Shown piece after piece: positions 41,320 through 46,185 of a stretch of 64,000 bases of DNA. Within the stretch, counting starts at the first letter, position 1. Each line of letters starts with the position of its first letter. Below the pieces are notes generated by a model. The model searched no databases. It saw only the letters and a list, made by a program, of their open reading frames with translations, and had not been told where the DNA came from. Both the position numbers and the translations under genes were made by a program. Source of the DNA: an uncultured Flavobacteriaceae bacterium (GTDB taxonomy: Bacteria; Bacteroidota; Bacteroidia; Flavobacteriales; Flavobacteriaceae); contig CANLRK010000004.1 of NCBI GenBank assembly GCA_947493535.1, positions 98,950 through 162,949 of the forward strand. The letters run 5' to 3'.

Positions 41320-42375
41320 ATGGCAACAAAATCTCTTCATAAACGAGAAAACGAATTAGCACAAGCACAAAAACAACTTGATTTTTTATCTAATGGTATT
41401 TTTAAAAATGGGGAGTTGCCTACATTTAAAGAAAAAATAGCAGAAACCAAGCAGTTTCCTTTAACCCCTAAAAAACTAGAAATATTACAATTAAATTTAG
41501 GGTATATGTGTAATCAGGTCTGTGAGCATTGCCATGTAGATGCTGGCCCTGACAGGAAAGAAATAATGACTAAGGAAACCATGCAACAATGTTTAGAGGT
41601 AATAAAAAACACTAAAGCGCATACCTTAGATTTAACAGGAGGAGCACCTGAAATGAATTCTAATTTTCGTTGGTTTGTAGAAGAAGCTTCTAAAGCAGGC
41701 ATACAAGATTTTATTGTCCGTTCTAACCTTACCATTATACGTGCTAATAAAAAGTATTATGATTTGCCTGAGTTTTTTAAAAAACACAATATACATGTAA
41801 TCTCTTCAATGCCGCATTGGACTCCTGGAAAAACTGACAAACAACGAGGTAAAGGAGTTTTTAATGCCTCTATAAAAGCGTTACAAGAATTAAATGCTGT
41901 TGGTTACGGAATGCCTGGTAGTAATTTACGACTTGATTTAGTATACAACCCCTCAGGTGCTTTCTTACCAGGCGACCAAAAAGCTCTTGAAAATGAGTTT
42001 AAAAAAGCACTGCAAGACAACTTTAATATTCAATTTCATAACTTATTTGCAATAACCAACTTGCCTATAAGTAGATTTCTGGATTACCTTATAGCTTCTG
42101 ACAATTATGAAGATTACATGTATGCTTTGGTTGAAGCTTACAATCCTGTGGCAGTAGCCAATGTAATGTGCACCAACACACTTTCCGTAAGTTGGGATGG
42201 GTGGTTGTATGATTGTGATTTTAACCAGATGCTTGAACTAAAAGTAGCTAGTAAAATACAGCATATTAGTGACTATAACGAAGAGTTACTACAGCAACGA
42301 AACATTATAATTTCTCAACATTGTTATGGTTGTACTGCTGGCGCTGGAAGTAGTTGCCAAGGAACTGTAGCCTAA
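41320..42375 (+). CDS. arsS: arsenosugar biosynthesis radical SAM protein ArsS
   Basis: Radical SAM enzyme, 351 residues. In the family it couples dimethylarsenic to a 5'-deoxyadenosyl group from SAM. The cluster motif is C64xxxC68xxC71 in CNQVCEHC, followed by HVDAGPDRKE; the glycine-rich SAM strand is LDLTGGAPEMN. The C-terminal Cys-rich end has C335, C338 and C346 in HCYGCTAGAGSSCQG; relatives can carry selenocysteine in this region, but here all are Cys codons. It lies between the AhpD-like gene and the rhodanese gene, 19 bases before the probable ATC of the latter. Assignment is strong from the Cys-rich end together with the ArsM neighbour. Confidence 0.95.
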   Translation: MATKSLHKRENELAQAQKQLDFLSNGIFKNGELPTFKEKIAETKQFPLTPKKLEILQLNLGYMCNQVCEHCHVDAGPDRKEIMTKETMQQCLEVIKNTKAHTLDLTGGAPEMNSNFRWFVEEASKAGIQDFIVRSNLTIIRANKKYYDLPEFFKKHNIHVISSMPHWTPGKTDKQRGKGVFNASIKALQELNAVGYGMPGSNLRLDLVYNPSGAFLPGDQKALENEFKKALQDNFNIQFHNLFAITNLPISRFLDYLIASDNYEDYMYALVEAYNPVAVANVMCTNTLSVSWDGWLYDCDFNQMLELKVASKIQHISDYNEELLQQRNIIISQHCYGCTAGAGSSCQGTVA

Positions 42376-42394
42376 TTAAAACATTTTTTAAGTT

Positions 42395-42883
42395 ATCAAG
42401 AAAACATTTTACATATTATTCCTTTTTGCTTTTACTAGTATTGCTCAAAATAACTCTTTTGATGTAATGCTGTTTAACACCTTAGAAAGAACAGTTCCGT
42501 TTATTAGCCCTGAAAAACTACTAAAAAACTACAATAACTATACAGTTCTTGATATTAGAGAACCTCAAGAATATAAAGTAAGTCATTTAAAAAACTCCAT
42601 CTTTATTAGTTATGAGGATTTTGATATCAATAAAACAATACAAGCTTTACCTAAAAATAAGCCTATTGTTGTGTACTGTTCTATTGGTTATAGAAGTGAA
42701 AAAATTGGCGAATTATTAATCCAAAAAGGGTATACCGTATACAATTTATACGGTGGCATTTTTAATTGGGTAAACAAAAGTCAACCTATTGTAGATGGTT
42801 ACAACAAGCCTACAAGTAACATTCATCCTTATAATAAAAAATGGGCTATTTGGCTTACCAACGGCATAAAAGTATATGACTAA
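42395..42883 (+). CDS. exported rhodanese-like protein with probable ATC start
   Basis: Rhodanese domain with active-site Cys in VVYCSIGYRSE, a sulfurtransferase or phosphatase-like fold. The ORF track starts at the ATG at 42467, but the same frame continues upstream without a stop and encodes KKTFYILFLFAFTSIAQ, a clean signal peptide, preceded by ATC at 42395. A start at ATC (where ATG would give MKKTFY...) gives 162 residues and explains the upstream sequence; the ATG at 42467 would remove the signal and leave a cytoplasmic protein. It overlaps the next gene by eight bases. ATC starts are rare, so a sequencing error in this codon is also possible. Its role in arsenosugar synthesis is not known. 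Confidence 0.8.
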   Translation: MKKTFYILFLFAFTSIAQNNSFDVMLFNTLERTVPFISPEKLLKNYNNYTVLDIREPQEYKVSHLKNSIFISYEDFDINKTIQALPKNKPIVVYCSIGYRSEKIGELLIQKGYTVYNLYGGIFNWVNKSQPIVDGYNKPTSNIHPYNKKWAIWLTNGIKVYD

Positions 42884-43487
42884 AAATAAAAACTTACTCC
42901 TTATATTTACTCGCAACCCTGAAATAGGGAAATGCAAAACACGGCTTGCAAAAACTATTGGTGCAGAAAATGCTTTAAGTATATATAAAACACTACTTGA
43001 ACATACTGTAAAAACAACTTCAAACATACCTTGTGAAAAGGCAGTATACTATTCAGTTAAAATACGAGAAAATGACATTTGGGATAACGAAGTTTTTAAA
43101 AAATACCTGCAAAATGGTACTGACTTAGGTTTACGAATGAAAAATGCTTTTAAAACGAGCTTTGAAAATAACTACCATAAAGTACTAATTATTGGGAGTG
43201 ATTTGTATGATTTAGAACCTAAACATATTCAAAAAGCTTTTAAAGAGCTTGACCATAACGATGTTGTTATTGGCCCTGCACAAGATGGTGGTTACTATTT
43301 ATTAGGCATGAAAGAATTACACCCAAACATATTTGAAAATAAAAATTGGGGAACCGCAACTGTAAGAGAGGAAACATTAAACGATTTAAAAACAAAAAAA
43401 GTAGCTCAATTAGAAATGCTAAATGACATTGATGTGTATGATGACATAAAAGAATATCCGGCGTTTAAACCATACTTAATACAATAA
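42876..43487 (+). CDS. arsenosugar-associated glycosyltransferase 1 (TIGR04282/DUF2064 type)
   Basis: 203 residues with the nucleotidyl/glycosyl-transferase A-like fold. The N-terminal LLIFTRNPEIGKCKTRLAK, the central LIIGSDLYDLEPKHIQKAFK and VIGPAQDGGYYLLGM are those of the rSAM/selenodomain-associated transferase 1 family (TIGR04282). It starts inside the rhodanese gene and ends 21 bases before the phosphorylase gene. It probably moves a sugar or glycerol-phosphate-type group to the arsenic ribose, but the substrate is unknown. Confidence 0.92.
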   Translation: MTKNKNLLLIFTRNPEIGKCKTRLAKTIGAENALSIYKTLLEHTVKTTSNIPCEKAVYYSVKIRENDIWDNEVFKKYLQNGTDLGLRMKNAFKTSFENNYHKVLIIGSDLYDLEPKHIQKAFKELDHNDVVIGPAQDGGYYLLGMKELHPNIFENKNWGTATVREETLNDLKTKKVAQLEMLNDIDVYDDIKEYPAFKPYLIQ

Positions 43488-43508: not shown

Positions 43509-44324
43509 ATGAAAAAACAACAACTACAAGAATCTATAAACTACCTTAACAGTAAAGGAATTGATCAAGCAGAAATAGGGATCGTTTTAGGTACTGGCTT
43601 AGGTAAAATTGTTAATGAAATTACAATAGAACAAGAAATAGCTTATGCAGACATTCCTCATTTTCCAAAAGCTACAGTTGAGTTTCATTCTGGAAAACTT
43701 ATTTACGGTTGGCTAGAAGGTAAAAAAGTAGTCGTCATGTCTGGCCGTTTTCATTTATATGAAGGTTATAACTTATGGGAAGTAACCTATGGCATACGTA
43801 TTATGCATGGTTTAAACATTAACAAACTACTTATTTCTAACGCAGCAGGAGCTATTAATTTAGCATATAAAAAAGGCGATTTAATGCTATTAGATGACCA
43901 TATTAACCTACAAGGAAATTCACCTTTAGCCTTTGCAAACGTAGGTGAGTTTGGCTCACAATTTACAGATATGCTTGAGCCATATTCAAAAAAGATAAAC
44001 CTTCAGCTTAAAGCTATAGCCAAACAAAACAATATCACTTTACATGAAGGTGTTTACGCTAGTGTTGTAGGACCTCAACTAGAAACCAGAGCCGAATACC
44101 GAATGTTAAGCATTATTGGTGCAGACGCTGTTGGTATGAGTACCGTGCCGGAAGTTATTGTAGCTAACCACTTAAATATTGAAACCATAGCCGTATCGGT
44201 ATTGACTGATGAATGTGACCCTGACAATCTTAAACCTGTTAATATTGAAGAAATTATAGCTATTGCAGGCCAGGCAGAACCTAAAATGATTACTCTCTTT
44301 AAAAAATTAATTCAACAACTATGA
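43509..44324 (+). CDS. purine nucleoside phosphorylase, trimeric (class I) type with adenine-like specificity residue
   Basis: 271 residues of the trimeric PNP family: GRFHLYEGY (phosphate site), ISNAAGAINLAYKKGDLMLLDDH, GPQLETRAEYRML and GADAVGMSTVPEVIVANH. Ungapped comparison with human PNP after the MSTVPEVIVA segment puts Asp234 (VLTDEC) opposite human Asn243, the base-recognition residue; the Asn-to-Asp change in the human enzyme is known to favour adenine nucleosides. The gene overlaps arsM by four bases (ATGA), so it belongs to the arsenosugar operon. The likely role is phosphorolysis of the arsenic-bearing adenosine made by ArsS. A housekeeping purine salvage role remains possible. 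Confidence 0.9.
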   Translation: MKKQQLQESINYLNSKGIDQAEIGIVLGTGLGKIVNEITIEQEIAYADIPHFPKATVEFHSGKLIYGWLEGKKVVVMSGRFHLYEGYNLWEVTYGIRIMHGLNINKLLISNAAGAINLAYKKGDLMLLDDHINLQGNSPLAFANVGEFGSQFTDMLEPYSKKINLQLKAIAKQNNITLHEGVYASVVGPQLETRAEYRMLSIIGADAVGMSTVPEVIVANHLNIETIAVSVLTDECDPDNLKPVNIEEIIAIAGQAEPKMITLFKKLIQQL

Positions 44325-45333: not shown

Positions 45334-46185
45334 ATGTCTATAACCTCATACATATCACTTTTTACAAGTCTATTGATTCTTTCTTGTGCCTCAACAAAAA
45401 ACACCGGAACACAAGAAAACAAACAACCTGTCAAAAATCCAACAGCAAAAACTATTAAAAAGGACAGTAGCTCTTTTACTGTTGCTACTCCGAAAAAAAT
45501 ACTTGATATAGATAGTACATCCGTAACGGAATTAGTTGTTGAAAAAATAAACCACAATCTTTTTCATGAACTGTTACAAAAACACGTTAACATTAAAGGA
45601 AACGTTAATTACAAAGGATTTATTTCAGACAAGAAACAACTTAACACTTATCTGTTACTTTTATCTAAAACTCCTCCAGGTGATTCCTGGACTAAAGAAG
45701 AAAAACTTGCTTATTGGATGAATGCTTACAATGCATTTACCATAAAACTAATTATTGATCACTACCCCATAAAAAGTATAAAAGACATCAAATCTCCTTG
45801 GGATTATCGATTTATTAAAATTGATAAAAAATGGTATACTTTAAATGATATTGAGCACCGTATACTGCGTAAAATGAATGAGCCCAAAATTCATTTTGGT
45901 ATAAACTGTGCCTCTTACTCCTGTCCACCGCTATTAAACAAAGCGTTTACTTCAGCTACCGTAAATAATGATTTAGAATTTTTAGCATACCAATTTATAA
46001 ATGATAAGAGTCGAAATACAATTTCCGAAAACAATATAGAGCTCTCAAAAATATTTCAATGGTTTTCTAAAGATTTTAAAACAGATGGTTCTTTAATTGA
46101 TTTTCTAAATAACTATTCCAATATTCAAATAATGAGTACCGCAAAAAAAAGTTATAAAAAATACGATTGGAATTTGAATGAATAA
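45334..46185 (+). CDS. DUF547 lipoprotein of the arsenosugar operon
   Basis: 283 residues. The N-terminus has a lipobox (SLLILSC, Cys18), then a low-complexity linker of about 65 residues rich in Lys, Thr and Ser, and a DUF547 domain from about residue 90. Signature segments are KLAYWMNAYNAFTIKL, IKSPWDYRFIKI and HFGINCASYSCPPL with a Cys pair. DUF547 proteins are found with ArsM/ArsS genes as I recall, with unknown activity; the conserved Cys and His suggest metal or thiol chemistry. It overlaps the next glycosyltransferase by eight bases. Confidence 0.88.
   Translation: MSITSYISLFTSLLILSCASTKNTGTQENKQPVKNPTAKTIKKDSSSFTVATPKKILDIDSTSVTELVVEKINHNLFHELLQKHVNIKGNVNYKGFISDKKQLNTYLLLLSKTPPGDSWTKEEKLAYWMNAYNAFTIKLIIDHYPIKSIKDIKSPWDYRFIKIDKKWYTLNDIEHRILRKMNEPKIHFGINCASYSCPPLLNKAFTSATVNNDLEFLAYQFINDKSRNTISENNIELSKIFQWFSKDFKTDGSLIDFLNNYSNIQIMSTAKKSYKKYDWNLNE

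Follow-up and report, generated by a model that had tools for sequence, protein, structure and literature searches.

In the window analysed here, a stretch of 64,000 nucleotides from an uncultured Flavobacteriaceae bacterium, a rhodanese gene follows arsS, and the locus raises the question of where translation of this rhodanese begins. The first ATG of its frame lies at 42467, and an earlier note had proposed that the frame upstream of it encodes a hidden signal peptide preceded by ATC where ATG would be expected, either as a rare start codon or as a mutation or error. Comparison with related genomes makes it likely that translation of the exported rhodanese begins at ATC 42395 instead of at an ATG (Table 1).

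The leader upstream of the first ATG

Reading of the sequence reproduced the open frame, the coordinates and the leader peptide of the earlier note. The frame is closed upstream by TAA 42389-42391, followed by GTT at 42392 and then by ATC, which is in phase with ATG 42467 and with the stop codon at 42881-42883. The codons after ATC are AAG AAA ACA TTT TAC ATA TTA TTC CTT TTT GCT TTT ACT AGT ATT GCT CAA. We found no ATG, GTG or TTG in this frame between the TAA and 42467. The latter had been called the annotated start; it is indeed the earliest canonical start in this frame, and no annotation stands behind the term. Read from ATC, the protein starts with I or fM, continues with KKTFYILFLFAFTSIA and then Q, and has the positively charged start, the hydrophobic core and the cleavage site (S-I-A before Q) of a signal peptide. 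The mature N-terminus after cleavage is predicted to be QNNSFDVMLFNTLER.

In a profile search, the ATC form matched NF045521, a family of rhodaneses found near arsenosugar glycosyltransferases, with 182.2 bits (curated cut-off, 145 bits) over model positions 1-144 of 144, and PF00581 (rhodanese) at 4e-19. Since the NF045521 match covers residues 18-161, the start of the model coincides with Q, the residue predicted to be the first of the mature protein, seven residues ahead of the first ATG. The cluster is a standard arsenosugar cluster with the gene order AhpD-like protein, ArsS, rhodanese, TIGR04282 glycosyltransferase, purine nucleoside phosphorylase, ArsM, DUF547 protein and TIGR04283 glycosyltransferase, which places the rhodanese beside arsS and the TIGR04282 and TIGR04283 glycosyltransferases. 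The gene is a sulfur-transferase-like rhodanese of the arsenosugar cluster and belongs to family NF045521. We found no literature linking arsenosugars with rhodanese. The arsS stop is 19 nt from ATC, and a fusion of arsS and rhodanese was ruled out by the intervening stops. At the other end, the ATG of the TIGR04282 glycosyltransferase overlaps the rhodanese over 8 nt (42876-42883), so that translation of the glycosyltransferase may be coupled to that of the rhodanese.

Table 1. Features of the rhodanese locus (coordinates refer to the window).
Feature	Coordinates	Strand	Evidence or remark
arsS, arsenosugar radical SAM protein	41320..42375	+	TIGR04167, 436 bits; adjoins rhodanese upstream
In-frame TAA	42389..42391	+	Sequence; closes rhodanese frame upstream, excludes arsS fusion
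ATC, proposed start codon (fMet)	42395..42397	+	Comparison: ATT in G003, ATC in G002, ATG in G001 and G082
Rest of signal peptide, KKTFYILFLFAFTSIA, predicted cleavage between A and Q	42398..42445	+	Translation, orthologue pattern, amino-acid constraint
Mature rhodanese-domain protein (QNNSFDVMLFN...) with CSIGYRS as active-site loop	42446..42883	+	NF045521, PF00581
First in-frame ATG	42467..42469	+	Conserved in the five close genomes; a short form lacking the signal peptide may start here
TIGR04282 arsenosugar glycosyltransferase	42876..43487	+	Profile match; ATG overlaps rhodanese end by 8 nt
AsSugarArsM	at 44321		Profile match
TIGR04283 glycosyltransferase	at 46178		Profile match

Start codons among orthologues and within the genus

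Orthologues were collected from 150 relatives and a 400-genome sample of the family, which yielded the DNA of 153 distinct frames. ATG occupies the start column in 142 of these, by an automatic start classification in which L024, L077, L103 and L141 were reassigned by eye, and most of the others have GTG or TTG. The orthologues inspected show M-K/R followed by a hydrophobic stretch at exactly the column of the window's ATC, and those read by eye carry a signal peptide ahead of the mature domain, as does the window's frame, all judged by sequence pattern. The proposed signal peptide is thus borne out, together with the expectation that orthologues begin with MKK or its like here; the opposite observation, orthologues lacking a signal peptide in this frame, was not made among those inspected. 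Only three frames are without any canonical start: the window's, that of G003 in the same genus and that of G419 in another genus. In the window and G003, there is no canonical codon at the conserved N-terminus. In G419 (L135), CTG AAA, or an ATT before the CTG, stands where its congener G247 (L166) has TTG; this is another candidate for a non-canonical start in the rhodanese family, independent of the first.

The genus was represented by four genomes (the window's, G003, G002 and G001), and the neighbouring genus by G082. An isoleucine codon is conserved at the start column in three of the four: ATC in the window, ATT in G003 (ATT AAA AAC) and ATC in G002 (ATC AAA AAA). G001 and G082 have ATG. 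The three with an isoleucine codon are different species with separate assemblies, and in all of them 23 codons, without indels, lie between this codon and the internal ATG that is conserved in the five genomes. In the window and G003, a stop lies one to three codons upstream of the start column with no canonical codon in between. The start of G002 is ambiguous, since a GTG lies nine codons upstream of its isoleucine codon and could be the actual start instead of ATC. G002 (L010/L085) also has an ATG directly after the arsS stop, with which a frame of five codons (MNSQI) begins, ahead of the rhodanese leader. In G001 (L084/L008), and only there among the five genomes, a 173-nt gap with repeat-like sequence separates arsS from the rhodanese gene; this insertion and the ATG start of G001 are perhaps linked.

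A tree of seven neighbouring proteins separated the window, G003 and G002 from G001 and G082 (bootstrap 89), a grouping that was not recovered in a tree of arsS only. With the split of the larger tree, a single replacement of ATG is enough. The change from ATG to an isoleucine codon therefore probably occurred once, in the ancestor of the three species, and the codon would have been retained since, despite saturated synonymous sites.

Among the three genomes with an isoleucine codon, pN of the leader is 0.33-0.38 vs a pS of 0.66-0.83, with synonymous sites near saturation in leader and body alike. In the leader, conservation is highest at second codon positions (18/23 between the window and G003, vs 10/23 for third positions). 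These patterns indicate that the leader is under selection at the amino-acid level. Furthermore, in a neutral simulation of a 23-codon leader at 1.5 substitutions per site, about 0.5% of the trials per lineage remained open and signal-peptide-like, whereas two further species keep such a leader. For the rhodanese body, comparison of the window with G003 gave a dN of 0.20 and a dS of 1.6 (dN/dS about 0.13, well below 1), and the frame and the CSIGYRS catalytic loop are intact in all three species.

This arrangement is rare in the window. Among its 72 stop-to-stop frames of at least 100 codons, only two have a signal-peptide-like stretch before the first canonical start, and the one besides the rhodanese looks like a chance frame. 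Canonical starts were found for the seven neighbouring genes in all five genomes, except for the DUF547 protein of G003, the N-terminus of which is not aligned. In a comparison of the frames of the 64-kb window to the syntenic regions in G002 and G003, the rhodanese was the only real gene we recognised whose alignment extends far beyond the first canonical start on the upstream side and which has no shared canonical start. Other frames that align in this manner look, by eye and from their coordinates, like antisense chance frames. Upstream conservation of the ordinary kind is seen in several real genes, as 4-13 conserved codons directly ahead of a canonical start that the genomes share.

A second gene bears on whether an isoleucine codon can serve as a start in these cells. 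infC, encoding IF3, is present in the genome, and in three genomes of the genus (G000, G002 and G001; L163, L164 and L165) its conserved N-terminus reads GTC/GTT ATA GCA ATA CGT AGA, with no ATG, GTG or TTG. ATA is the likely start of infC in the genus. As infC starts at ATT in E. coli and at ATC in Streptomyces (PMC5472188), the lack of a canonical infC start in the genus makes initiation at an isoleucine codon very probable for its ribosomes.

Competing explanations

The main competitor of the ATC start is ATG 42467, as the only start or as a second one, the product of which would be a cytoplasmic rhodanese, with or without a small amount of exported protein made from ATC. The conservation of this ATG in all five close genomes speaks for such a start, as does the position of the Pfam rhodanese domain proper, downstream of 42467. 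However, the same ATG is present in G001 and G082, the leaders of which have an ATG of their own, so that in these genomes it is simply an internal methionine codon. Furthermore, the NF045521 model starts before it, and if it were the sole start the leader would be untranslated, yet frame, length, hydrophobicity and amino-acid constraint of the leader are kept in three species. We therefore consider this explanation unlikely. The least probable explanation of all is a frameshift or readthrough from arsS that would extend its translation into the leader: the end of arsS is close upstream, but the arsS C-terminus and its TAA are conserved in these genomes, and the window has a further TAA, in the rhodanese frame, between the end of arsS and the leader.

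The remaining explanations take ATC for a defect. ATC is one base away from ATG, and it could have arisen by an error in sequencing or assembly, or by a mutation private to the strain. The genome of the window is 99.6% complete, however, and the independent assemblies of G003 and G002 also lack ATG at this column (ATT and ATC), so an error or private mutation would have to hit the same codon three times. Loss of ATG is also a common first step in gene death, and the gene could now be decaying. Here, the loss is older than the split of the three species, and a body well below neutrality with an intact catalytic loop in all of them is evidence against decay. The isoleucine codon common to three species and the selected leader thus render error, recent mutation and pseudogene unlikely, and we regard both defects as highly improbable. 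Of the two alternatives left by the earlier note, mutation or error is very unlikely, and the rare ATC start gains support from the isoleucine codons of the two sister species.

Proposed initiation at an isoleucine codon and known counterparts

Ribosomes of Bacteroidetes do not rely on Shine-Dalgarno sequences. In Flavobacterium, initiation is tuned by weak RNA structure and by adenines at -3 and -6 instead of Shine-Dalgarno pairing (PMC6847099). In the window, these positions are occupied by G (-3) and T (-6) instead of the favoured adenines, which counts against the ATC start. Predicted structure around the start is nearly absent in the three genomes with an isoleucine codon (-1.6, -0.7 and -1.6 kcal/mol) compared to the two with ATG (-9.4 and -7.5 kcal/mol); this would fit a compensation for the weak codon, though five sequences prove nothing.

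Near-cognate start codons initiate inefficiently and lower expression. In the mechanism that we propose, the ancestral ATG would have given way to an isoleucine codon that was then kept, and initiator fMet-tRNA would read ATC 42395 to yield a protein that begins MKKTFYILFLFAFTSIA, then Q. This protein would be exported by Sec and is predicted to be cleaved before Q. Initiation at AUC would be inefficient and opposed by IF3, so that ATC would keep rhodanese synthesis below that of the operon neighbours; the output would perhaps vary with the level of IF3, and ribosomes finishing arsS 19 nt upstream would perhaps help initiation. Proven cases of a start opposed by IF3 are infC and Streptomyces sigR, which begins with GTC; in sigR, putting a canonical codon in place of GTC increased SigR and disturbed the system (PMC5472188). 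By analogy with that work, and from general knowledge of near-cognate codons, the output from ATC would be low, and the isoleucine start would probably be an inherited way of keeping the exported rhodanese scarce. More speculative, and in our judgement rather doubtful, is a lineage-fixed valve in which an IF3-sensitive AUC or AUU would hold the rhodanese below ArsS and maybe set the output of the downstream glycosyltransferase, with a form started at ATG 42467 possibly giving dual localisation.

Genes with near-cognate starts are a known kind, and the rhodanese would be a new case of it, unusual in being lineage-fixed and in concerning a metabolic, exported protein in a Bacteroidetes lineage. 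To our knowledge, few bacterial genes besides infC keep a start other than ATG, GTG or TTG across speciation. In a limited literature search, we met no such start kept over speciation in Bacteroidetes. Gene callers that assume the three canonical starts would overlook this one and list the rhodanese as a truncated, cytoplasmic enzyme without noticing its export. Since the case is conserved, lies in a short operon and has infC of the same genus as a near-cognate comparator, it offers a direct way to test how Bacteroidetes use such starts.

Among known counterparts, the other NF045521 rhodaneses share sequence, gene neighbourhood and signal peptide, and differ in that nearly all begin with ATG and a few with GTG or TTG. 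infC, which starts at ATT, ATC or ATA, resembles the rhodanese gene in keeping an isoleucine near-cognate start over evolutionary time, probably as ATA in the same genus; infC differs in that it autoregulates the very factor by which its start is read, whereas no link of the rhodanese to IF3 is evident. The IF3-repressed GTC start of Streptomyces sigR (PMC5472188) has been proven experimentally, in a Gram-positive bacterium and for a regulatory protein, whereas the rhodanese is a predicted exported enzyme. In both cases, an operon gene has a non-canonical start that annotation misses and that a lineage has kept, with the proposed effect of holding the product below that of its operon partner.
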